Shown here one piece after another: positions 29,315-48,682 of a stretch of DNA of 48,682 nt. The position numbers and the translations under genes are program-made. The DNA lies in assembly GCA_903922465.1 (NCBI GenBank), contig CAIXTV010000167.1, positions 1-48,682 on the forward strand, written 5' to 3'. The notes beneath the pieces were generated by a model. The model was not told the origin of the DNA, ran no database searches, and saw only the letters and a list, made by a program, of their open reading frames with translations. Source of the stretch: an uncultured bacterium (GTDB lineage: Bacteria > Bacteroidota > Bacteroidia > Bacteroidales > CAIXTV01). Each line of letters starts with the position of its first letter. The stretch's first letter is position 1.

Positions 29315-32300
29315 CTAGTTCTTAATAATCTTTAGCACAGTGGTGTTTTGTTTACCTTGTATTTTTATAAAATACACCCCTTGCTGAATGGTAGTACTAT
29401 TAAAAATAAAAGCATTATGCCCAAAGGTTGCTTCACGTTTTTCAAAAGAAACAAGTCTGCCACTCACATCTGTTATTGCAATATCTAAAGTTTGTTTTCC
29501 TTTACTTTCCATATTAATCATATACCAATCGGTAAATGGATTAGGAAAAACTTCAGCAAGAAATTCTGAAGAAACATTGTCATCAATTCCTTCAAAACCC
29601 TGAGGATGCTCCGTAATGCAAATGTTATCGAGATAAACATTGTCCATCTTCATAGGAAACCCCATAACAGTTGTGTCTTTTGAGACGCATCGACTTTCAA
29701 ATTCAAGATTAAACTGTGTTCCTGCATATGTATTTAGACTTACATAATGGGTTTTAAAAGGATCACTTCCTGATGTAAGAGGTTTAAAGCCTGGTCCCAT
29801 TTGAGTTCCATTTGCTAAAACACGAAGATTACTGCAATTGGTATAATCTCCAGCCCCGATGTATTGAGTGTAAATTGTTCCCCCATCGGTTTGTTTAAGA
29901 TCGAAACGAAGACTGGCTTCAGTCCAGGAGGAAGCGTTCACACAAAACCCTATTTTTGCAGAAAGGAAATCATTCACCTGCCAATTGTTAGTCCCATCTG
30001 GAAATTCCAAGATATTTAAATAATCGAATGCATTTCCTCCTGTCATCAGAAAACCTTTCACTCCTGTATTGTGCGCTGTTGTTGAAACTAAAGCGTGAGA
30101 GTAGTTTGTTGTTAAAACATAAAACAAATCGGTGGGATTGGTTTCTTCAAAAGTGATAGTATCTTCCAGCATAAAAACAGGATTGCTGATTGAAGTCTGG
30201 AGGGTGTTGTTCGTTAGAAAAGTATCGAGGGGGAAAGCAGTTTTAACTTGTACCGTAATTAAACCATTCTCTGCGCTTAAGTTTGCCTGTGTGATAAAAG
30301 TATAAGTTATCGTGTCATAAGGAAACATGGTAGCATTGAGGATGTAATTTTCTGTAACAATAGGTTGGAGGTTAACCTTGTAACTTAAAGGAATAGTGTC
30401 ACCTGCCGGAAGAGAATCGCAACCAAAGAAACTAAACTTCATTGAAACACTTTCGTTTTGCAAACCACAACCTGATATTGGAGAGAGAATCTTTATTGGT
30501 CCAACATCTACGTTTTGTAGCAGAATATTAGTGAATTGATATTGGATGATACTGTCAGTAAATACAGTTGTATTGGCGTCTAATTTGGCCCAACAATTCA
30601 AAGTATGGATTCCTACGGTGGAAACATTAAAAGGTAAAGAACTGATGTGCTGAAGCGTGTCGCCACCATACCAATTTGCAGTAAGGCTTAAGGTGTCATA
30701 AATAATAGGATTGCTATCCATTTTATATGCTAATACAATTTTTTTTCCTGGAGTGAGAATTGAATCACATCCTGCATAATACATATCGAGACCAACATTT
30801 ACATTGTTCAAACCACAAGCTGTGGTTGGAGAAGTAACATTCAGTAGGAAAATTTCAGTATTGCTAAGTGGATATCCAACCCCTGCAGCATACCAAGCTA
30901 AGGCTGTTTCCTTGACAGCAGCAGAACAACTTCCATATAGGTCAGTTGCAGCTTCTACCGCAGCAAAATACCAATCAAGATATTGGGAAGAGGGAGTGAG
31001 ATAAGTTGTTAATGAACGATAAGCAATTGCTTGAGCTGTATCCATGCCAAGCCCATGAATATTATAATGAAATCCATTGTCATTAGTTCCTGTATCTCCT
31101 TTTGCTAACATATAAAACCAATAATTACCAACTCCATCGTTATCATGAACCCCACCATTATCACTATTAGGATCGAAATTCCAATTCTGACCATGATAAG
31201 TGTCGGGTTGTGAAAAGAGCTTAGGGTTTTGAAGTGAGCGCATGGCTGTTGAATTAAGATCTTCGCCAAGTGTCCAGTTTGCTGCAGTGTCGGCAAAAAA
31301 CTCAATGCAAGTACCAAAGATATCACTATGTGATTCGCTTAAGGCTCCAGGCTCATCCTGATATACAAATCCTGCTTCATTTTCGCTCACCCCGTGAGTA
31401 ATTTCATGACCACATACATCAAGTGATGTAAAAGGGCCATATCCACTAGTTCCGCCATCTCCGTACGTCATTCTGGTGCCGTCCCAGAAGGCATTGAGAT
31501 AATTAGTTCCATAATGTACATAACTATATAATGCAGCACCTGCATTATCATAACTATTGCGTCCATGTTTCTGGAAATAATAATCATATGTCATTTCACT
31601 TGCCCAATGAGCCTCGTTTGCAACCTTGTCGGTGCTAAAGTAAGGGGAAGTACTAGTAATTTCAAGGGCATTGGTATAAACTTGTGTGTGATTTAAACTG
31701 AAAGTGTACAGGCCATTACCTCTGCTGTTTTCGCGTAAACGGTAAGAAGTAGAATTTACTGAATCCATCATAATTGTTTTGGTTCCATCATATTGAGTAA
31801 GCGCTGTGCCAGGCTTATCAGAATTTTTCAGCATGTTGAGGCTATGATAAATGGCTCCGGTTTGAGCATCTACAAATATTAAAAGTTTTTTAAGGGGTTG
31901 TGAAGCGTAAACCTCTAACTTATAAGCTAAGCGATACAGCTTTGCATCATGTGAATATTTCTTGTCAACAATTACCAATTCAGCTTTAGGATAGTAGCTT
32001 GCATTAGGATCGTTTTTAATTGATTTAAGTTGTGCTTCAGAGCCAGCATCTTGCCACATATATTTTTCCGCATTTACGAAGGTAAGGGCATTGTTTATGG
32101 CTTTTTGCTTTGAAACTGTAGGTTGGATGTTAATAGCAAGGTTTGTGATGAGTTTTCCATTACAACTTTTTGCTAGGCCATCAATAGAGTGAACAATGTA
32201 GACTGCTCCTTCAACAACAATTCCTTTATAAGTTTGCTGATATTTGTCGTGTCTTTGTCCAAGTTTGTCACTAGTAGTTTTGATAAGTTTCATCACATCA

Positions 32301-32494
32301 ACATTGCTCCTAAGTCCGAACAATTGAAGATAGGAATTCATTAAAGCATCAGCTTTAATTTTTGTAGAGGTTTTAAACTTAACCCAATCGGTTCCGTTTT
32401 TGCTTGTAGCAATAGAATTAAGCTGATTAAGGTTCTGATTAAAACCTTCAAATGCAAAAAGCATTATGAATAAAAGAATAGAAATTTTTTTCAT
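29315..32494 (-). CDS. M4 (thermolysin-like) metallopeptidase with T9SS sorting domain
   Basis: A 1059-residue secreted peptidase. I chose the start at MKKISILLFIMLFAFEG, because 18 extra upstream codons would precede the signal. The FTP-type propeptide covers about 30-230. The M4 catalytic domain holds the zinc site GHEITHG (H363, H367) and the third ligand E387 in GALSESHSD. Two CARDB-like repeats follow (about 580-770, ACGLNNVNVGLDMYYAGCDS and SGCGLQNESVSMKFSFFGCDS), then a MAM-like beta domain. A Por C-terminal sorting domain ends the protein (VFPNPFTDWY, TDVSGRLVSFEK, QQGVYFIKIQG). It degrades external protein. It stands alone behind a candidate promoter. Confidence 0.95.
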   Translation of the reverse strand: MKKISILLFIMLFAFEGFNQNLNQLNSIATSKNGTDWVKFKTSTKIKADALMNSYLQLFGLRSNVDVMKLIKTTSDKLGQRHDKYQQTYKGIVVEGAVYIVHSIDGLAKSCNGKLITNLAINIQPTVSKQKAINNALTFVNAEKYMWQDAGSEAQLKSIKNDPNASYYPKAELVIVDKKYSHDAKLYRLAYKLEVYASQPLKKLLIFVDAQTGAIYHSLNMLKNSDKPGTALTQYDGTKTIMMDSVNSTSYRLRENSRGNGLYTFSLNHTQVYTNALEITSTSPYFSTDKVANEAHWASEMTYDYYFQKHGRNSYDNAGAALYSYVHYGTNYLNAFWDGTRMTYGDGGTSGYGPFTSLDVCGHEITHGVSENEAGFVYQDEPGALSESHSDIFGTCIEFFADTAANWTLGEDLNSTAMRSLQNPKLFSQPDTYHGQNWNFDPNSDNGGVHDNDGVGNYWFYMLAKGDTGTNDNGFHYNIHGLGMDTAQAIAYRSLTTYLTPSSQYLDWYFAAVEAATDLYGSCSAAVKETALAWYAAGVGYPLSNTEIFLLNVTSPTTACGLNNVNVGLDMYYAGCDSILTPGKKIVLAYKMDSNPIIYDTLSLTANWYGGDTLQHISSLPFNVSTVGIHTLNCWAKLDANTTVFTDSIIQYQFTNILLQNVDVGPIKILSPISGCGLQNESVSMKFSFFGCDSLPAGDTIPLSYKVNLQPIVTENYILNATMFPYDTITYTFITQANLSAENGLITVQVKTAFPLDTFLTNNTLQTSISNPVFMLEDTITFEETNPTDLFYVLTTNYSHALVSTTAHNTGVKGFLMTGGNAFDYLNILEFPDGTNNWQVNDFLSAKIGFCVNASSWTEASLRFDLKQTDGGTIYTQYIGAGDYTNCSNLRVLANGTQMGPGFKPLTSGSDPFKTHYVSLNTYAGTQFNLEFESRCVSKDTTVMGFPMKMDNVYLDNICITEHPQGFEGIDDNVSSEFLAEVFPNPFTDWYMINMESKGKQTLDIAITDVSGRLVSFEKREATFGHNAFIFNSTTIQQGVYFIKIQGKQNTTVLKIIKN

Positions 32495-32516
32495 GGAATT
32501 GATTTTTATTAAGCCG

Positions 32517-32524
32517 TAAAAATA
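32517..32524 (-). promoter_or_regulatory. candidate -7 element for the M4 peptidase
   Basis: Read on the minus strand the bases are TATTTTTA (seven of eight to TAnnTTTG). A TTTTG in the -33 region (minus strand, about 32539-32543) lies upstream. The start codon is 23 bases downstream. Confidence 0.4.
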
Positions 32525-32776
32525 GTTTTTTTTTGGGACAAAAGACATTTTAGGAAAAGGAGTTTAAAAGTTTATACTTTTATGAATTCGGGTAGAATTG
32601 AAAAAATGGGTGCTAATTTTAAGTCCATAATATGTCAGTTAAGATTGGCTGATCTAAAAAGGTAAATTTAATTTAAATTGTTTAGCCTTGAATACATTCT
32701 AAGTTCCACAGTAGGATTTAAAGGTTGAGTGCAATTTGAATATAATAAAAATCGTTTTTAAATTAAGACTATAAAA

Positions 32777-35700
32777 TTAAGGGTATTGAGAGGTTACTCC
32801 TGAAGTCAGTCTGGGTTCAAATAGATTGAAATCTTCAGAATCAACCCAACCTCCTCCATTAAAGTCGGAGCTTAAGAAGCCAGTGGTACCTAATATTAAA
32901 TTAGGTTCAAATAAGTTGAAATCGTCAGTATCCACCCAGCCTCCCTGGTCAATATCACCAAGATAGAATGCGTATTTCCCAGGCACTGGCTGCATCTGAG
33001 GATCAGTTCCAAAAGCCTGCAACATATCGCTGCTGAAATTATAATAAACAGTTTCTGTATTAAAAGGAATAGCAATTGCCGACCATGTGGCTAAGTGGTT
33101 ACGGTTGCTCACTTTCATAAAGTAATTGCCATTATGTGACGAGGATATTTGAAAAGTAGCAGAACCATTCGTATTTAAATCAATACCGCTGATACTTACT
33201 CCTATTGGAGTGTAGGGGTAATTTTCCTGAAAAAGATCGATTTGGATTTTGTCTGCTATTCCAGAAGCCCATTGGGGTTGATTCGTATTACCATCCATAG
33301 CTTCTATCATAGTAGAAGTGCTCTTATTAAACAAACCTTCTAAATACAAGTGAAGATTGACAGTTTTATAAAGTGAAATACTCACGGTAACAGCAGATCT
33401 ATTTTGGCTTTCGCAACCAGAAAGTGTTTGACTTGCATAATAGGTAAATGCATTAGTCAGTAAGACTGTTGATAAAAGTAAATTTCCTCCTGCAGGAGCA
33501 TCGTACCATTTAAGGTTAGTGCCTGAAGCAAGAAGGTTGGCAACACTAGCTGCATAATTAAAACTTTGAGTTGAATTGGCTGTAGGGGCAGGGGTTGTAT
33601 TTATAGTTGCTGTCACATCAAGTCGGGCAGTGCTTTCACAGGAGCTAATTGTTTGAGTAGCCCAATAATGATTCCCATTTTGCAAGGTTGTAGCACTTGC
33701 CAATGCAGTACCTCCTGTTGCACTTGCATACCATTTTATCGCATTTCCTGTTGCTGATAAATTAGCCACTGTTGGAGAAATATTTGAGCAAAAAACCTGC
33801 AAAGCTGCACCTGTTGGTGCGGCAGGAGTTGAAGGTTGCGTATTGATTAATGCATTTGCTGAAGCTAAAGAAGTGCATAATGCAGGATAGGTGACAGTGA
33901 ATGAATAGGTCCCTGAAGAAAGTCCGCTTATTGTAGTAGAAGTTCCAGCGCCTGATGTAGTTGTTCCTCCAGGAGTTCTAGTTAATGTCCAGCTTCCGCC
34001 TGAAGGCAACCCATTTAATTGGACACTTCCGGTTGAGGTTGTGCAAGTAGGTTGAAGGATGGTTCCAATTAATGGAGCCGAAGGGGGAGTGCAAGAAGAT
34101 AATACATTTATTGTATAGTCTTCTACTTCGCCATAATTGGAAATTCCACATGGGGAGGTTGGCTCTTCATTATAATGAACCCTGACTCTCATACGCTTTA
34201 ATCCTGCTAAAGCATTTGCAGGACATGATACAATAGCTGAATAGGGTCCGCCACCGGGACTTCCACTAACCGTAATTGCTAGATCATCAGTAAAATCTCC
34301 ATTGTTATTCCAATCTACCCATATTCCACAATGGTCTTGAGCATAAGGCATGGGGTTAGCAATATTAATTGGGAGAGAAGTTCCTTGAGTAATATTTGTT
34401 GAAATGGCTGTATAGTCTGCATATCCATTTGTTGAGCAAGCAGAAGTGTTGTTGATGCTTCCAATGCTAACATTCGAAATATATTCATCACAAATATTGG
34501 AACCTGCATTACAATAGGTCACGGCAATCTGACGGTTTCCTATAGGATTCGATATGGTAGGGGTTCTAACTGTTCCGATGGTTAATGCAGTGCATTGGCC
34601 GTCAAGGAAATTATTCAGGGTAGCGGTTATTGGAACATCATAGGTTAGCCAAAAGTAATTTATTCCATCGCTTAATGTTTGAGTTCCTGTGATTATGAAT
34701 GTTCCGTTTGGGGAAATGTAGGTGCTCCCAAACTGAGTCCCTGTTGAGAAGCTATTGTTTAAGCCGGAATAAAAAAGTTTTGCATTAGAGATGTCTGTTG
34801 CTGGATTTGTACTTCCCAGTGTATTAAAAGTAAATGAAGTTGCACTGAAAGGAGATAAGCTTCCACTAACTACAACTTGAACTCCGATTATCTCCTGATT
34901 GTTAAGGGTAGGAGCAAGGGCAGCTATATTGTTTTGAGTTGTGGTGCTTGAAATATAGCTCATTGGAATAGCTGTGTAATAAACAGGTGTTTCCCAAAGT
35001 CCTCTTCCAAAGGTAGCTGCTCTTAGCTTACTTGCCTGAGGATTTGATGCATAATAAATTTCAAGTTCTCCTATAGTGACATTGGGTAAGCCTAAGTTGA
35101 ATGCTACCCAATTATCAGTTCCTTTTTTGAAATAAACGCCCAACTCAGTTCCGAGATAAAGTTGAACTTCGGGGGAGGATTGTTTATTCTGAATTATTGA
35201 ATATGCGGGAATCTGGGGTAATCCTGCTGAAATATTAGTCCATGTTGTACCTCCATTAGTAGACTGATATACTTTGTCAGAATTGAAACCTCCAATAGTG
35301 ACCCAAAGGGTATTGGCATCATCATTTTTAACTGCAATTGAAGTAATATCTCCATTGTTTGAAGGCAAGGTGCCTGTGATATCCGTCCAAGATGTGCCTC
35401 CATTTGAAGTTTTCCAAATGGTTAATGGTGCAGCCACATACAATACCTGAGTATTGGAAGGGGCAATTGCCATCGAACGAATTTTTGAGGAAGCATTGAT
35501 AGAAGATATTTGTGTCCAAGTGCTGCCTCTGTCGATTGTTTTCCAAACATCAGCATAACCTGCATATAAGATTAAAGGATTTGTAGGGTCGATGATGTAG
35601 GGTGTTACCCATGCTCCATCACCTGAGCCTGAAGGCTGAATATTGGTAGCGCTGTTCCAGTGATTAGTGGTTCGGTCGATTTGACCATTTACATAGGTCC

Positions 35701-38588: not shown

Positions 38589-38798
38589 GTGCGGACGACC
38601 GGAAATCTAGTGCGGACGAAGTATTTTTTAGTGCGGACGAAGTATATTTTAGTACGGACAAAGATATTTTTAGTGCGGACGAAATATTTTTTAGTGCGGA
38701 GAATATTTCCTTTAGTGCTGACGAAGATATTTTTAGTGCTGACGAAGTATTTTTTAGTACGGACGAAGTTTTTTTAAGTGCTGACGAAGTTTTTTTAG
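38589..38798. repeat. 21-bp minisatellite, 10 tandem copies
   Basis: Ten head-to-tail copies of a 21-base unit (gtgcggacgaagtattttt then ta) begin at 38589 and repeat every 21 bases to 38798. Each copy differs slightly (gtgctgacgaag, gtacggacaaag). The plus frame running through it reads SADEVFF seven-residue repeats as the end of a 108-codon frame (38483-38809) that starts with TTG and has an unconvincing N-terminus. Translation is therefore doubtful, and it is recorded as a repeat only. Confidence 0.9.
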
Positions 38799-40592: not shown

Positions 40593-41402
40593 TTAAAAGG
40601 GAAGGGTTTGGGAGGCTACTCCTGAAGTTAATCGGGGTTCGAATATGTTGAAATCGTCGGCATCAACCCATCCGCTGCCATTGAAGTCGGAGGGAAGAAA
40701 GCCTATAGCTCCAATAGTTAATGCGGGTTCGAAAAGATTGAAGTCGTCGGCATCAACCCATCCGTTTTGGTCTAAATCGCCAGCATAAAAGGCGTATTTT
40801 CCGGGTTCAACCATAACTTGAGCATCGGTGCCGAAAGCTTGTAGCATACTGGTTGTGAAGTTGTAATTTACGGAAGAGGTATTAAATGGAACCGCAATAG
40901 ACGACCAAGTTTCTAAATGGTTGCGATTGTGAACCCTAATATAATAATTGCCATTATGCGAAGAAGAAATTTGAAAAGAAGCTAAGCCATCGGTTGACAA
41001 ATCAATTCCGCTAATGCTAACCCCAAGAGGATTGTAAGGGGGGATTTCTTCAAATAAATCGACCTGAATTCTGTCGGCAATGTTGTAGCCCCATTGAGGT
41101 ACACCCGTATTGCCATCCATTGCTTCATTCATTTTATGGGTAGATAAATCGAATAGGCCTTCAAGGTACAGATTAAGGGAAATGTTTCGGGCGAGCGACT
41201 GCCAAGTTTGCAAAAACCCTTGTGTTATGGTTGAGTTTGTACCCACTGCGGTTCCAACAACAGCTTCGCCAACCGAATAGGCAAGATAACCACCGCTGTA
41301 TTGTGCGCTTCCTCCAACTGAATTTATTACGTTGGGTTTTACTTGAGCTTTCAAGCACAAGGATATACTTATCAAGCTAATAAATATGATTAGTTGTTTC
41401 AT
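40593..41402 (-). CDS. small secreted protein with dockerin-like C-terminal module
   Basis: A 269-residue protein. Signal 1-20 (MKQLIIFISLISISLCLKAQ) is followed by a segment (25-65) of the VxSxGGSAxxSxGYLxYSVGEA type often found just before C-terminal regions in T9SS proteins, ending TQGFLQTW. Residues 74-264 match the last 195 residues of the 1503-residue protein: [52 protein letters not shown], then the calcium-type repeats [16 protein letters not shown] and NGSGWVDADDFNIFEP. It starts 25 bases after the M4 peptidase stop, so it is cotranscribed. Its function is not known; calcium-dependent binding or surface anchoring is inferred. Confidence 0.85.
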   Translation of the reverse strand: MKQLIIFISLISISLCLKAQVKPNVINSVGGSAQYSGGYLAYSVGEAVVGTAVGTNSTITQGFLQTWQSLARNISLNLYLEGLFDLSTHKMNEAMDGNTGVPQWGYNIADRIQVDLFEEIPPYNPLGVSISGIDLSTDGLASFQISSSHNGNYYIRVHNRNHLETWSSIAVPFNTSSVNYNFTTSMLQAFGTDAQVMVEPGKYAFYAGDLDQNGWVDADDFNLFEPALTIGAIGFLPSDFNGSGWVDADDFNIFEPRLTSGVASQTLPF

Positions 41403-41427: not shown

Positions 41428-43371
41428 TTAAGGTAATTGGGGTTGGTTTTCTATTGATAAACAACAAGGGTTTATTTTAAATATGGAATATGAACCTGCA
41501 TTAGCATTAAATGGAGGTTTGACACTTACTTTTTTCCCTGCTTGAAATATGGGGGTTTGCGGAGCATTTACAATACCATCTTGAATGGTAAGGATGTTAG
41601 CAGCTTCATAGGTTCCACCATATGGGCCAGGGTAGGTTCTATTGTAATAGGATTGATTACTTCCCACTCCCACAGCATACCATGCTTCTGCAGTTTGAAT
41701 AACCTCGTTAGAACACTCTCCATATAAATCTTTTGCAGCTTGTATGGAACCCTCGCGAGATAAAGCATAATCGGAAAACTGAATGAGATAAGTGCTGAGA
41801 TTACGATATGCAATTTGAGCAGCTTTTTCAATTCCTATTCCATTGACCTCATAATAATCACCATTGTCATTTTTCCCGGAGCCTCCTACTGAAAGTAGAT
41901 AGAACCAATAGTTTTGAACACCGCTGTTAGTATGAACTCCATAATTGTCAGTTGCAGAGAAACTCCATAATGTATCTAGATAGGTTGTGGGCTGTCGGTA
42001 GAGCTTGGGGTTAGAGAAACTGCGTATAATAGGATTTATAGCTACTCTGTCTTCGTTTATCGTCCAATCTGGTGGATATAAAACTGTATCGGGTTCTGCA
42101 TACCGTTCAATCATGGAGCCAAAAATATCTGCAAAGGACTCATTGAGTGCCCCGGGTTCGCTTTGATAAATAAGGTGGGCGGTTGTTTGCACCACGCCAT
42201 GTGTAAACTCGTGACCAATAGCATCAATGGTGTTCCAGTCGTCATCGGGGGAATTAAATGCAGCTCCACCACCTAAGGTCATTACATTCCCCTCACATGC
42301 CCAACATGCGTTATTCCATGTGGTTCCGCCTGCTGTTGTTAACATAGAATTATTAAGGGCAATAATGGGAGCGCCATTACCGTCCCAACTGTTTCGATTA
42401 TGTTTTTCCAAGTAGTAATGCCATATTCGGTCAATAGCCCACATGCTTTCAACTGCTGGTTGTTGTAATCCATTCAATGAGTCCCAAGTATTATCATTGT
42501 CATAATAATTAGTCAGTGCGCCATTTCCATGGTGGTCAAAAACAGAATAGAATGGGAAGGAGCAATCGTTTTGCATGACAAATAAATTGTTACTTACGCT
42601 TGTGTTAAATGTAACATTTCCATGCCATGTAGAAGTGCCTGACCCGGGGTTGCACGACATAGATAAAGACAGGGTTTTAAAAACTATGCCCAGTTTGGCA
42701 TCGATATATATTCGATTGGCATCCATGGGGGTTTTAGCGTGAATATCAAATGCCCAACACAAGTGCATTTCAGATGGAATAAAAGAATTGTCTGCAGATT
42801 CGCTAATTAATACTAACTCGCCTTTAGGATACCAGCTTGCCTTTCCGTCCTTTTTTTGCTGTTTCAGCAGGGCTTCTGCTTCTGGACTTTGCCATAGATA
42901 TATTTGTGCATCTACATATTCTAAAGCTGTATTTAGGGCTTGTTCTTCGGTAAAGAGTGGGGTTACTCCAATATTAATACCAGGTATTATTATTCCATTT
43001 GCTTTTTCAATTAGGCCATCCTTTTCATGAACAATATATTCGGCACCTTCAACCTTTACTCCATTATAATATTGATTAAATCGGGTGTGAGTGTAACCTA
43101 ATTTATCTTTTTCGGTTCTAACAACTTTCATGTCGTCGTAGTTGCTTAGGTGGAATCTTTCTTTTTGCTTAATAAAAAGATCAACTGCACTTATACCAAT
43201 TCCAGGTTTAAAGTGTACCCATTCGGTTTTGCTTTTTCTGTTTGTTGTTTCGGGTGATTTTTGGTTCTGAACTTTGGTTTGTTGAGCCAAAGAAAAATCA
43301 GAATACAATAAAAACATCAAAAGAGACATTAACTTTAAAACCTCTGAAAGTTTTAATAATAGCTTTTTCAT
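41428..43371 (-). CDS. M4 (thermolysin-like) metallopeptidase without sorting domain
   Basis: A 647-residue secreted peptidase (signal about 1-30, ending FSLAQQ). The FTP/PepSY propeptide covers about 45-240. The M4 domain carries the zinc motif GHEFTHG (H387, H391) and the third ligand E411 in GALNESFAD. The C-terminal half includes AWYAVGVG, as usual for the family. The last 60 residues (GGTYEAANILTIQDGIVN, VKPPFNANAGSYSIFKI) resemble the short strand before a T9SS domain, but no sorting domain follows. The dockerin-like gene starts 25 bases downstream. It is the third gene of the four-gene minus-strand group. Confidence 0.93.
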   Translation of the reverse strand: MKKLLLKLSEVLKLMSLLMFLLYSDFSLAQQTKVQNQKSPETTNRKSKTEWVHFKPGIGISAVDLFIKQKERFHLSNYDDMKVVRTEKDKLGYTHTRFNQYYNGVKVEGAEYIVHEKDGLIEKANGIIIPGINIGVTPLFTEEQALNTALEYVDAQIYLWQSPEAEALLKQQKKDGKASWYPKGELVLISESADNSFIPSEMHLCWAFDIHAKTPMDANRIYIDAKLGIVFKTLSLSMSCNPGSGTSTWHGNVTFNTSVSNNLFVMQNDCSFPFYSVFDHHGNGALTNYYDNDNTWDSLNGLQQPAVESMWAIDRIWHYYLEKHNRNSWDGNGAPIIALNNSMLTTAGGTTWNNACWACEGNVMTLGGGAAFNSPDDDWNTIDAIGHEFTHGVVQTTAHLIYQSEPGALNESFADIFGSMIERYAEPDTVLYPPDWTINEDRVAINPIIRSFSNPKLYRQPTTYLDTLWSFSATDNYGVHTNSGVQNYWFYLLSVGGSGKNDNGDYYEVNGIGIEKAAQIAYRNLSTYLIQFSDYALSREGSIQAAKDLYGECSNEVIQTAEAWYAVGVGSNQSYYNRTYPGPYGGTYEAANILTIQDGIVNAPQTPIFQAGKKVSVKPPFNANAGSYSIFKINPCCLSIENQPQLP

Positions 43372-43389: not shown

Positions 43390-46300
43390 CTATTTCATTT
43401 TTAATAATTCAATTTCCTTTTGAATCCTTTGATTCTCTTTATTGAGTTCAATAACATAAAGGCTGAGTTCTTCAATCTTTTGATTCTTTTTATTGAGTTC
43501 AATAACATAAAGGGTGAGTTCTTCGATTTTCTCCATCATAAGTTTTTGCATGTCACCTAATTTTAAGCCATTATCGCTAACATCTTTGGCTGAAGGGATT
43601 CCGGGTAAATGCTTGTTCTCTTTAATCTGTTTCTCTAAATCAAACAAGGGGGTAAGTTTGTATTTGTCAGTGAAAACATAATCGGGCCAGCTGGCTTTTA
43701 ATTGAACTGTTAATTCTTCACATATTATCTTGCCATTAACTGCAAGCACATAACCAAGAGGAAGATAGTTTGTTCCGATGGACATTCCGTTAGCTCCCAT
43801 TTTAGCAATGGGCCAAGTGTAAGGTGTGCCAGAACTACCTTCAGTAAAGAAAATTCCATTACGGCCAGCTACTACAGAAAATGGCTCCATGGATTCTTGC
43901 CAATCATGCCCTGAATTAATAGCTGTGTAATCGCCAAAGATTGCATTCCACCCTGATTCAAAGATTGACCTAGGTGTTGATTGATCATTATAAATATGAA
44001 AGTCGCTTGGAACAAAAATATTTGCTGAAGTTTTTATATCTCCATTCACATCGAGTCTTTTAGTAGGGGAGGTGTTATCTATTCCAACATTTACATTGTT
44101 TCCCAGATTCATTGCATTGCTTATCGCAATTTTTGTATTATAACCAATTGCGGTTGCATTGGTAAGATTAGCTGAAGAAACATCGGCTTGATAACCAATA
44201 GCTGTGTTAAAGAAACCTGTTGAATTTAAAAATAAAGAAGCATATCCAATAGCAATGTTAGAGCCACCTGTAGTGTTGTGCATAAGTGCATGAAAGCCAT
44301 TTGCTGTGTTATAGGAACCGGTTGTATTTTCAGTTAGTGTTTGATATCCTAATGCGGTGTTTCCATTGCCAGTATTACCTGAAGCAGGTTGAGTTCCTTT
44401 TAATGCTTCGAAGCCCATGGCTACATTATTATTGATAAAATCGACTGAGGAATTATTTGCATACAACATTGCTCCACTTCCGATGGCTGTTGCTCTGTTT
44501 CCTGCAACATTACTATAAAGTGCATCGTATCCAACTGCTGTATTATCGCTACCTGTTGTGTTTAAATAAAGAGCACCCCGCCCTGATGCAGCATTGTAAT
44601 TGCCAGTAGTATTCCAATATAGTGAAGCAGATCCATTCGCTGCATTTTCATTCCCAGTTAAGTTGTGCAAAAGAGCTTGTGATCCATTTGCTGTATTGTT
44701 ATTTCCTTCAGTGTTTGCATTAAGTGCGTTTTTCCCCAAGGCCGTATTTGAATAACCAATTGTATTGGAATTTAATGATTGAGCACCGGCTGATGTATTA
44801 TCGTATCCTTCAGTATTAGACATGAGTGCGCTTCGTCCAATTGCAACGTTTGAGGTTCCAATTGAATTTGATGACAATGCACTGGCTCCAAGTGCAGTGT
44901 TATCATACCCAGTTGTATTTGTAGCAAGTGCCGAATAACCATTAGCAGTATTAAAAGAACCACCTATATTGGCTCCTAATGCGTTCATCCCTGTTGCAGT
45001 ATTTGAGCCTCCTGTGGTGTTAAAGTGTAATGCATTCATACCAAGGGCAGTGTTATATCCTCCAAATGTATTTGACATTAATGCATTCATCCCAAAAGCT
45101 GAGTTATTAGTTCCAAAGGAATTTAATGAAAGAGCGGCATAACCAAAAGCCGAATTAAAACTTCCATTGGTATTGGCATTTAAAGCATTCATCCCAGTTG
45201 CGGTATTAGAACCACCATAAGTATTCGAATAAAGAGCATAAGCGCCACTTGCCGTGTTATTGCTACCTGAAACATTGCTCCATAAAGTTTGATAACCTAA
45301 AGCCGTATTATTGTTCCCTGTATTGGAAGAAGCAGTAGCGGAACCACGTAAAGCTTCATAACCTAATGCAACGTTGTAATTTGTGAAATCCATAGTTGAA
45401 CTATTAGAATATAACATGGCGTTATAGCCAACTGCTGTTGCATTGCTCCCTGCTACATTGCTAAAGAGTGCATTTAGACCAAAAGCAGCATTATAACTTC
45501 CTGAGATATTGTGCGAAAGTGCTAAGTTTCCATTTGCTGTGTTCTGATTTCCTGTTGTATTTGCATTTAAGGCCCAATAACCATTAGCGGTATTTTGTCC
45601 CCCAGAAGTGTTTCCCCAAAGGGTTTGATAGCCAATGGCAGTATTATTATTTCCGCTATTTGCTGAAGCTGTCAATGAACCACGAAGCGCTTCGAAACCA
45701 ACAGCAACATTATAATTTGTAAAAGCCATAGTGTAATTACTGGCATATTGCATGGCATTATATCCAATGGCAGTACCATTGCTTCCACTAACGTTTGAAT
45801 TTAACGCACGCATTCCAATAGCAGTATTGCTGTTTCCACTCATGTTAGAATATAAAGCATTCCAGCCAAGAGCTGAATTACTATTTCCGGATGAATTAGT
45901 TTTGCCCGCCTGATAACCAAAAAAACTATTGAATAAAAATTGATCTACCCTTCCTGCCATTTGGTTATTTGCACGAAAAGTTAAAGGAACATTATCGCTC
46001 GTTCCTAAATAATTTGTCCCATCAGTGGTGCCTGAGTTTCCTAAACGCGACCAGGCAGTTAATCCTCCATCAGCTCCTGTTGAACCAGTAGCTCCTGTTT
46101 TACCTGTTAAACCTGTAACTCCTGCTAATCCTTGAGCTCCTGTTGCTCCTGTAGCGCCAGATAATCCTTGCAAACCTTGAGTCCCTGTTGCTCCTATGTT
46201 TCCAGAAAGCCCCTGAATTCCTTGAATACCTGGGGTTCCTTGGATACCTTGGGTTCCTTGAGCCCCAGTGTTGCCTGTTGCTCCTGCTGTCCCGCTTTGA

Positions 46301-46692
46301 TTGGCATACAATGCATAAGGAACTGATAAAAACTGATTGCTTCCAACCAATGAATAATTATTTCCTCCCGTGGGGTCTATTTCTACTTTTAAAAAATAAG
46401 AATTTGCGCCCCAACTGATTGAATTGAAAGAACCCGAAACGATATTTCCTTGTCCAATCTTTAAGGTGAAAAGTCCGAATCCATCGGTAGTTTGTTGGTG
46501 GGTTTCTACATACGTTGCCGTTCCCACAGCGCTTTCGCTAAGAATGCTTAGACGGAGGGAAACGTTTTGATTGACAAGTACGTTCCCATTAGTGTCGCGG
46601 GCTACGCCCTGATAATTGATTGATTGAGGTGATTGTGCTAAAAGAGCACTGCCGAATAATACGGACAAGATTAAGGTATAAAGCTTTTTCAT
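43390..46692 (-). CDS. collagen-like / NTAxG-repeat fibre protein with coiled-coil end
   Basis: A 1100-residue exported protein (signal [20 protein letters not shown]). A conserved N-terminal domain ([24 protein letters not shown], 20-135) is followed by a Gly-x-x collagen-like stretch (about 137-205). About 40 copies of a 17-residue left-handed beta-roll repeat follow (pattern TTGxxNTAxGxxALxxN). A C-terminal domain ([16 protein letters not shown]) leads to a coiled coil with a 17-residue tandem duplication ([17 protein letters not shown] then [17 protein letters not shown]). No S74 chaperone domain is seen. It resembles trimeric surface fibres and is 12 bases from the fibre gene upstream. 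Confidence 0.88.
43428..43529 (-). repeat. 51-bp tandem duplication inside the coiled coil
   Basis: Two 51-base copies begin at 43428 and 43479 and are nearly identical. They encode the 17-residue coiled-coil repeat, the same length as the beta-roll unit upstream in the protein. Confidence 0.85.
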
Positions 46693-46704
46693 ATTAATAT
46701 TATT

Positions 46705-48682
46705 TTATTTGTTTATGGTGTTTTCTATTTTTTCTATTTTAGTAAGTAATTCTGAATTTTGTTGGGAGAGATTTTCAATGGCTTTTTGAAGAAGTCCTAT
46801 ATTGCTATTTTGTTTTTCTATTAGGCTTTGTTGACTTTCAATTATGGATTGCTGCTCTTGCACTGATTTTACCAGAGGAGCAATGAAATCGTTATAGCGA
46901 ACACTGTACATTCCATCATCGTCTTTTGTTATGATGCCACTATTGCTAGCTCCGGCTTTTAATAAGGCATCTTCTATTTCCTGGGCAAGGAAACCATATT
47001 CTGTTCTATTGCTTTCGTCGTTATTGCGGATGTAGGAAACAGGGTTTAGTGTTTTAATAAAATCGAGGCCGAGCTTGGATTTTGTAATATCCGATTTAAG
47101 CCTTTTATCAGAAGTGATAGACCAAGCCACCTGAACACCGGCATAGGTGACGGCTGTATTGCCAATGCGCACTTGGTTGCTTCCTGTAGCAGTGGGCACT
47201 TGAGCATAATAGCCGATGGCTGTGTTGTTGCTTCCTGTAGTGACAAAGCGAAGAGCATCTACACCGCTGGCTGTGTTTGAACCTCCTGTTGCAAGATAAA
47301 GTGCTCCACTCCCGTTGGCTGTATTATAAAAACTAGTAGAATTCGAATAAAGTGATTGTATCCCATTGGCGGTATTATAACCTCCCGTGGTGTTTGAGTA
47401 TAGCGCCTGTTGGCCATCAGCAACGTTAAAACTACCAGTTGAGTTTGAATAAAGTGATTGAGACCCATTTGCCGAATTATTAATACCAAATGTGTTAGAG
47501 TTAAGAGAATAAACGCCATTGGCCGTATTATTATTCCCTGTTGTGTTTGAGAATAGCGCTCTAGTTCCAGTTGCAGTATTATAATTTGCTGTGGTATTGT
47601 TGAAAAGAGCACTATCTCCATTAGCAGTGTTGCTGTTTCCTATTGAATTGTGAAAAAGAGCATAAGCACCATTGGATGTGTTAGAATTCCCACTGCTATT
47701 CCAAAAAAGAGAATAATAGCCATTGGATGTGTTTTCAATTCCAACTGTATTATAAGCTAGAGAATAAACACCATTTGCTGTGTTGTAGCTTCCTGCAGTG
47801 TTCCAATTAAGAGCATATGATCCATTGGCAGTATTATCATCTCCTGTTGAATTCCAAAACAGGGATTGACTACCATTAGCTGTATTCCCGTTTCCAGTTG
47901 TATTACCCCCAAGTGCCGAAGCTCCGGTTGCAGTGTTTCCTCCCCCAGTTGTATTATGAGCAAGAGCATCAACTCCGATAGCGCTGTTATAAGTTCCTGT
48001 TGTATTTTGAAGGAGAGCATCCGCACCAATAGCGGTATTATCATATCCTGTTGTATTTTTAAATAAAGCTAAGAATCCATTTGCAGTATTGCCATTTCCT
48101 GTAGTGTTAGCTGCTAAGGTGTAATTGCCATTCGCTGTATTTTCGCTTCCAGTTTGATTTGCAGCTAAAGAAAAATACCCATTTGCAGTATTATCATCTC
48201 CTGTTGTGTTTGAAAACAGTGTCCTATTTCCAATACCCGTATTGTGATTTCCTGTCGTATTTGAATAAAGGGAGCTATTCCCATTTGCAGAATTGCCATT
48301 ACCAGTCGTATTTGAAAACAATGCTTTACTGCCAGTTGCAGTATTAGCATTTGCTGTTGTGTTTGAAAACAATGCGCTATCTCCAACAGCAGCGTTATTA
48401 CTTCCTGTTGTATTAGATAACAATGCAGAAACTCCGAGGGCTGAATTAGAATTTCCTGTAGTGTTGTTAAATAAGGAGTGAACCCCAATACCGGTATTAA
48501 AGTTTCCTATTGTATTGCTTTGTAATGCATAGTTACCATTAGCTGTATTGCTGTTTCCTGTTGTGCTAAAGGTTAATGCCCAGGAACCAACAGCTGTGTT
48601 TTCTGCCCCTGTAGTGTTAGCTGCTAAGGTGTAATTGCCATTCGCTGTATTTCCGCTTCCAGTTTGATTTGCCGCTAATGAA
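46705..48682 (-). CDS. tail-fibre-like protein with S74 intramolecular chaperone, 5' end beyond window
   Basis: A partial protein of about 659 residues; its frame stays open to the last base of the window, so the start lies outside. About 30 units of the 17-residue NTAxG beta-roll repeat are followed by RIGNTAVTYAG and an S74-type C-terminal chaperone domain (ITSDKRLKSDITKSKLGLDF, TLNPVSYI, EYGFLAQEIEDAL, YSVRYNDFIAPLVKSVQEQQ). In phage and bacterial fibres this domain helps trimerise and may cleave itself off. A long coiled coil ends the protein. It is the first visible gene of the minus-strand operon. There are no other phage genes here, so it is a cell-surface protein rather than prophage. 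Confidence 0.9.
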   Translation of the reverse strand, partial: SLAANQTGSGNTANGNYTLAANTTGAENTAVGSWALTFSTTGNSNTANGNYALQSNTIGNFNTGIGVHSLFNNTTGNSNSALGVSALLSNTTGSNNAAVGDSALFSNTTANANTATGSKALFSNTTGNGNSANGNSSLYSNTTGNHNTGIGNRTLFSNTTGDDNTANGYFSLAANQTGSENTANGNYTLAANTTGNGNTANGFLALFKNTTGYDNTAIGADALLQNTTGTYNSAIGVDALAHNTTGGGNTATGASALGGNTTGNGNTANGSQSLFWNSTGDDNTANGSYALNWNTAGSYNTANGVYSLAYNTVGIENTSNGYYSLFWNSSGNSNTSNGAYALFHNSIGNSNTANGDSALFNNTTANYNTATGTRALFSNTTGNNNTANGVYSLNSNTFGINNSANGSQSLYSNSTGSFNVADGQQALYSNTTGGYNTANGIQSLYSNSTSFYNTANGSGALYLATGGSNTASGVDALRFVTTGSNNTAIGYYAQVPTATGSNQVRIGNTAVTYAGVQVAWSITSDKRLKSDITKSKLGLDFIKTLNPVSYIRNNDESNRTEYGFLAQEIEDALLKAGASNSGIITKDDDGMYSVRYNDFIAPLVKSVQEQQSIIESQQSLIEKQNSNIGLLQKAIENLSQQNSELLTKIEKIENTINK
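48101..48172 (-). repeat. near-identical 70-base block inside the fibre repeat, copy 1
   Basis: About 70 bases starting gtagtgttagctgctaaggt closely match the block starting at 48611, exactly 510 bases (ten 51-bp units) away. This points to recent unit duplication or gene conversion within the gene. Confidence 0.75.
48611..48682 (-). repeat. near-identical 70-base block inside the fibre repeat, copy 2
   Basis: It matches the block at 48101 with only a few differences near the end. It runs into the window edge and may continue beyond it. Confidence 0.75.

Follow-up and report, generated by a model that had tools for sequence, protein, structure and literature searches.

The C-terminal module described here has its closest known counterpart in the type II X-module-dockerin (XDoc) dyad found in clostridial scaffoldins (CipA and CipB of C. 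thermocellum and ScaA of A. cellulolyticus; PDB 2b59, 3kcp, 5g5d, 5m0y, 4wi0, and 4u3s), in which an Ig-like beta-sandwich is packed on a two-repeat calcium-loop dockerin at the extreme C terminus of the protein, sometimes after cohesins. In clostridia, near-identical dockerin repeats permit cohesin binding in two orientations; the type II dockerins of C. thermocellum are asymmetric, and the type II XDoc of A. cellulolyticus has nearly identical repeats and a dual binding mode (PMC5141474). In the CipB XDoc, the Asn-Leu-Phe of the second repeat dominates binding to one cohesin. Type I dockerins (PF00404) and noncellulosomal dockerins are likewise built on a duplicated D-x-D/N-x-x-G-x-[VI]-D-x-x-D loop followed by a helix. 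Among sorting domains, T9SS C-terminal domains of types A (TIGR04183), B (TIGR04131), and C (cl41395) have been described (PMC10202324). For the Cloacimonadota member Ca. Stygibacter, a cellulosome-like complex in which a T9SS-type CTD anchors a cohesin scaffoldin and other proteins bear C-terminal dockerins has been proposed from genome data (PMC8542988).

The window analyzed in this study, a stretch of 48,682 nucleotides corresponding to positions 1 to 48,682 of contig CAIXTV010000167.1 from an uncultured member of the Bacteroidales (GCA_903922465.1), encodes two copies of a C-terminal module which, in its predicted architecture, its extreme C-terminal position, and its occasional location after cohesins, resembles the type II XDoc dyad and, in its near-symmetric repeats, that of A. 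cellulolyticus. It differs from type II XDoc in sharing only 12 to 18% identity with it, in belonging to a T9SS-bearing Gram-negative phylum, in being carried by tens of different passengers per genome, on which it takes the place of the T9SS sorting domain, and in that its binding to cohesins is putative. From type I dockerins, with which it shares the duplicated loop and helix, it is set apart by scores under the Pfam cut-off in the representatives scanned, by its constant coupling here to a beta-sandwich, and by a loop position 5 that in this genome is mostly Gly. The module shares with the T9SS sorting domains the same terminal place on homologous passengers and, in our sample, a restriction to SprA-positive genomes, but it has no detectable sequence homology to type A tails, is about twice as long, and contains two calcium-loop repeats. 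While the dockerins of Ca. Stygibacter are ordinary ones located on enzymes, the XDoc-like dyad considered here is found on adhesin- and propeller-like passengers.

We consider it somewhat probable that this is an XDoc-type docking module which is used instead of a sorting domain and which most likely binds the cohesins of type A-tailed surface proteins. A preliminary description of the window had already suggested that an anchoring or docking module substitutes for a sorting domain, a suggestion that is supported by the C-terminal position of the module, the substitution of a type A tail on a paralogous passenger, and the predicted XDoc fold, to which the symmetry of the repeats and the presence of cohesins add further computed support. 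The same description held that the module was possibly not described as such, in agreement with which no model of Pfam or NCBIfam covers it at cut-off and literature searches found no description of it. With 41 secreted proteins of this genome ending in it, the module is probably a means of cell surface attachment that has not been described before. Because surveys of T9SS cargo rely on TIGR04183 and TIGR04131, module proteins, whose export by the T9SS is presumed, escape detection as such cargo, and 41 secreted proteins in this one genome would be missed. If the tail docks on cohesins, Bacteroidota would possess a cellulosome-style assembly principle serving surface proteins that are not carbohydrate-degrading enzymes. 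Should it instead be a secretion signal, another class of T9SS C-terminal domain would be represented.

The module and its passengers

The first copy of the module (33370..32777, minus strand) constitutes the last 197 residues (1307-1503) of a 1503-aa ORF, P0001 (32777..37288, minus strand), in which it is preceded by a signal peptide, a Sortilin-Vps10-type propeller, BNR_assoc_N and GEVED domains, and two Ig_7 domains. Translation of 33370..32777 on the minus strand bore out both the coordinates and the two calcium loops given for this copy in the preliminary description, and the stop codon follows immediately after ...SQYP. Residues 1-137 of the module (32960..33370, minus strand) form an X-module-like beta-sandwich half, in which the motifs LEG, DKI/DWV, and YY..V.(H)RNH are conserved, followed by dockerin-like repeat 1 (32885..32956, minus strand), comprising a calcium-loop consensus and a helix, and by dockerin-like repeat 2 (32795..32866, minus strand), the second such loop and helix. 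A 269-aa ORF (40593..41402, minus strand) encodes a signal peptide, a short YSVGE..TITQGF passenger, and the second module copy (40605..41189, minus strand), which is 70% identical to the first.

Homology of the module to T9SS type A tails (TIGR04183/PF18962) was considered and rejected, as the Por_Secre_tail match to the 1503-aa protein scored 13.2 bits against a cut-off of 27 (E 0.11) and was internal, the hhalign probability was 11.8%, and a home-made type A profile gave at most 15.6 bits on module proteins compared to 22 to 73 bits on real tails. No NCBIfam match to T9SS type B (TIGR04131) was found over cut-off for P0001. The claim that no T9SS domain follows the module of the 1503-aa protein is thereby upheld. 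For type C (cl41395), the NCBIfam scan of P0001 likewise gave no match, to the extent that this library includes the type.

The propeller of the 1503-aa protein (residues 1-776) has a paralog, located on contig C212, which is 66% identical over 785 aligned positions and which belongs to a 1124-aa frame ending in a type A tail, GVYVIKLENGKTCEFKKLVKE. Most propeller homologs in the order with a readable C terminus end in a type A-like YPNP...G.Y tail, and two 165-aa proteins ending in type A tails weakly share the short passenger present in the 269-aa protein. The alternation of module and type A tail on related passengers reflects natural domain swaps, and the module occupies the place of the sorting domain, as had been supposed.

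Two M4 thermolysin-like peptidases encoded in the window (29315-32548 and 41428-43371, minus strand) also have different C termini, one bearing a type A T9SS tail and the other matching GCX_COOH ("3-coathanger stack") with a score slightly below the cut-off, and provide another example of alternative C-terminal modules on related passengers.

The genome, a draft assembly of 5.02 Mb in 312 contigs whose analysis was computational throughout, contains 39 copies of the module according to a single-sequence search and 41 according to a profile, numbers which show that the module is not due to chance. One of the 41 copies is cut by a contig end, and all 40 with a known end are C-terminal: 38 of them leave 0 to 6 residues after the module, and two C233 copies with divergent loops leave 44 to 52 residues by the profile's count. 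No type A tail was detected on any of the 41 proteins, and in none of them was the module found to be followed by a T9SS sorting domain; the same genome encodes at least 150 type A tails over the cut-off, together with SprA. A signal peptide was obvious, by a simple hydropathy look, in most module proteins with a complete 5' end.

The module is almost strictly C-terminal and replaces type A tails on passengers that are homologous, and both observations would also be expected if it were a T9SS secretion signal of a new class, additional to types A, B, and C. In that case the T9SS would recognize the C-terminal beta-sandwich, the calcium loops would serve only to stabilize it, and cohesin binding would be unnecessary. 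The final residue is Lys in 23 of the 41 copies, which is likewise consistent with such a signal. The lack of detectable homology to type A tails argues against this explanation, which we consider unlikely.

With respect to passenger composition, Pfam identified Ig_7 in 23 of the 41 module proteins, PKD_6 in 10, fn3 in 6, and cohesin in 4, in addition to reelin-like, lectin, FG-GAP, LRR, and propeller domains. Such a composition is difficult to reconcile with a true cellulosome, in which the module would assemble polysaccharide-degrading enzymes on scaffoldins. Although the XDoc fold and the presence of cohesins within one genome would fit such a complex, the module is joined to Ig_7, PKD, fn3, lectin, reelin-like, and propeller domains, and the 25 Pfam families most frequent in the 41 proteins include no glycoside hydrolase family; this explanation, already disfavored, is highly improbable. 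One 229-aa protein (L039:363-1049, minus strand) consists of a signal peptide and the module only, and represents a free secreted module that may act as a competitor or plug.

Predicted fold and calcium-loop repeats

Structure prediction with 17 own-genome rows was confident for the N-terminal sandwich only, the dockerin half having a pLDDT of <50, and the AlphaFold model obtained from the 30-row alignment A2, in which distant homologs are included, was confident for the whole module (pLDDT 97.1, pTM 0.91). Foldseek matched this model at E <0.001 to ten chains only, all of which contain the type II X-module-dockerin dyad (E 7e-6 to 1.7e-4). VIA-align to XDoc chains gave Z scores of 10.7 to 12.4 over 142 to 150 residues (rmsd 3.4 to 3.7; model range 1 to 190-197), compared to a Z score of 5.7 for the next-best match, and the A. 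cellulolyticus XDoc was among the top fold matches; the VIA list contains no T9SS CTD structures and has no bearing either way in that regard. According to the model, module residues 1-137 correspond to the X-module and residues 138-197 to the dockerin. Profile comparison yielded matches to the dockerins 5lxv (E 1.9e-6) and 2vn5 (E 4e-6), and the A2 profile matched the CipA XDoc 2b59 with an E of 0.002 in an alignment confined to the dockerin and the last part of the X half.

We predict the 197-residue segment to be an XDoc dyad, with an X-module-like beta-sandwich packed on a calcium-loop dockerin of two near-symmetric repeats. Judged by its fold and by the symmetry of its repeats, the module may work like a dockerin, its status as a functional XDoc being putative. 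Assignment as a plain type I dockerin was rejected on account of its sub-cut-off Pfam score and because the beta-sandwich is integral to the module. Dockerin_1 (PF00404) did not match P0001, scored 13.7 bits on the second copy, and reached at most 19.7 bits in distant homologs, against a gathering cut-off of 22.9; a single one of the 41 full-length module proteins had a Dockerin_1 match, at 1.6e-7.

In an alignment of 38 own-genome copies, Asp occupies loop positions 1, 9, and 12 in 38/38 copies each for repeat 1 and in 38/38, 37/38, and 38/38 copies, respectively, for repeat 2, and the loops are presumed to bind calcium. At position 5, Gly predominates in this genome (25/38 copies for repeat 1 and 18/38 for repeat 2), in contrast to canonical dockerins, a feature which counts against the docking interpretation. 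Both repeat helices open in this genome with FN[L/I/M]FEP, a motif whose apparent resemblance to the Asn-Leu-Phe of CipB is suggestive.

Across 21 modules from different genomes (1 own and 20 distant), the identity between the helices of repeat 1 and repeat 2 was 48% within a protein, compared to 22% when repeat 1 was compared between genomes and 19% when different repeats were, a within-protein match that was not attained in any of 20,000 permutations. The helices thus co-vary inside each protein while differing from one lineage to another, which is the behavior expected if a symmetric docking surface has a partner specific to each lineage; the same pattern would result from gene conversion. 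A pattern unlike that of the symmetric majority was observed in the distant homologs L082, L086, L089, L090, L097, and L098, in which repeat 2 (GIVTTRD.N.SWNNR) is constant between genomes and repeat 1 varies.

Ig-like and EF-hand-like domains are common stabilizers, and the module may accordingly be viewed as a calcium-stabilized cap or adhesive domain with no dedicated partner, situated on periplasmic or passively released proteins, a role to which the 229-aa copy, with little in it besides signal peptide and module, would be suited. However, the repeat helices are strongly conserved across paralogs (0.79, compared to 0.63 for the beta half), which suggests a partner, as does the matched evolution of the repeats across genomes, and we regard a cap or adhesive domain as improbable. 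The matched helices, taken together with the XDoc fold, also suggest a docking surface rather than a signal for secretion.

Candidate cohesin partners and distribution across Bacteroidota

PF00963 cohesins are encoded in the same genome, some of them on scaffoldin-like proteins with T9SS tails and others on proteins terminating in the module. A 2253-aa protein of contig C64 bears three N-terminal cohesins (E 9e-31), has a long Ig_7 stalk, and ends in a type A tail, and proteins of C106 (1841 aa) and C233 (1538 aa) each combine one cohesin with a type A tail. Two or three cohesins precede a terminal module in proteins of C106 (863 aa), C148 (1223 aa), and C233 (786 and 834 aa), a layout which is that of a clostridial adaptor scaffoldin. 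A cohesin match in C291 was left out of the count, as hmmscan of the same stretch gave none. Two adjacent same-strand cohesin ORFs are located at the end of contig C143 (L147), one of 691 aa with a weak type A tail and one of 324 aa whose 5' end is open.

It is proposed that the two repeat helices of the module bind the cohesins of surface proteins bearing T9SS type A tails, whereby the passenger would be held on the surface in a noncovalent and calcium-dependent manner, and that proteins with both cohesins and the module would act as adaptors. Since a passenger without any T9SS signal must still cross the outer membrane, an obstacle for the docking interpretation, the docking and secretion-signal interpretations, with which the same data are compatible, may both hold. 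The tail would then serve a dual purpose, acting as a fourth class of T9SS signal and subsequently plugging into cohesins on T9SS-anchored scaffoldins, such that the surface would be assembled by docking and not by covalent anchoring, a scenario which we view as speculative and rather unlikely.

The profile search across Bacteroidota that the preliminary description had proposed was performed with A2. Of 296 genomes, 44 gave a match to the module, which was strong in 42, and distant homologs are thus present in about 42/296 genomes. SprA was present in 44/44 module-positive genomes and the module in 0/67 SprA-negative genomes (Fisher p 7e-6), and within the order the module was found in 8 of 60 genomes, all 8 of which are SprA positive. 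These figures favor a secretion signal, although the SprA-negative genomes listed belong mostly to one family, a relatedness which renders the association between SprA and the module phylogenetically weak.

Cohesins (PF00963, E<=1e-4) were found in 22 of the 42 strong module-positive genomes compared to 60 of 187 other SprA-positive genomes, an association which, among SprA-positive genomes, is modest (p 0.02, ignoring relatedness). The 20 of 42 module-positive genomes with no PF00963 cohesin at E<=1e-4, some of which have 4 to 6 modules, count against docking, and the existence of several module-rich genomes without clear cohesins is in keeping with a secretion signal. For three such genomes (G088, G156, and G236), the explanation is either divergent cohesins or another role for the module. 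A relaxed cohesin search gave weak matches in 13 of the 20 module-positive, cohesin-negative genomes and in 2 of 16 controls, but no conclusion is drawn from this difference, all of the controls being from one class. Two relatives in the order, G298 and G342, harbor many dockerin-only matches without the beta-sandwich (13 in G298).

Two repetitive features were also observed elsewhere in the window. A 21-bp tandem repeat of about 9 copies (38608-38798) lies within a short ORF reading SADEVFF repeats, and two adjacent long repetitive proteins (43390-48423, minus strand) are both rich in SNTTGNxNTAxG repeats of ~17 residues, one of them with collagen repeats and the other ending in a Peptidase_S74 intramolecular chaperone.
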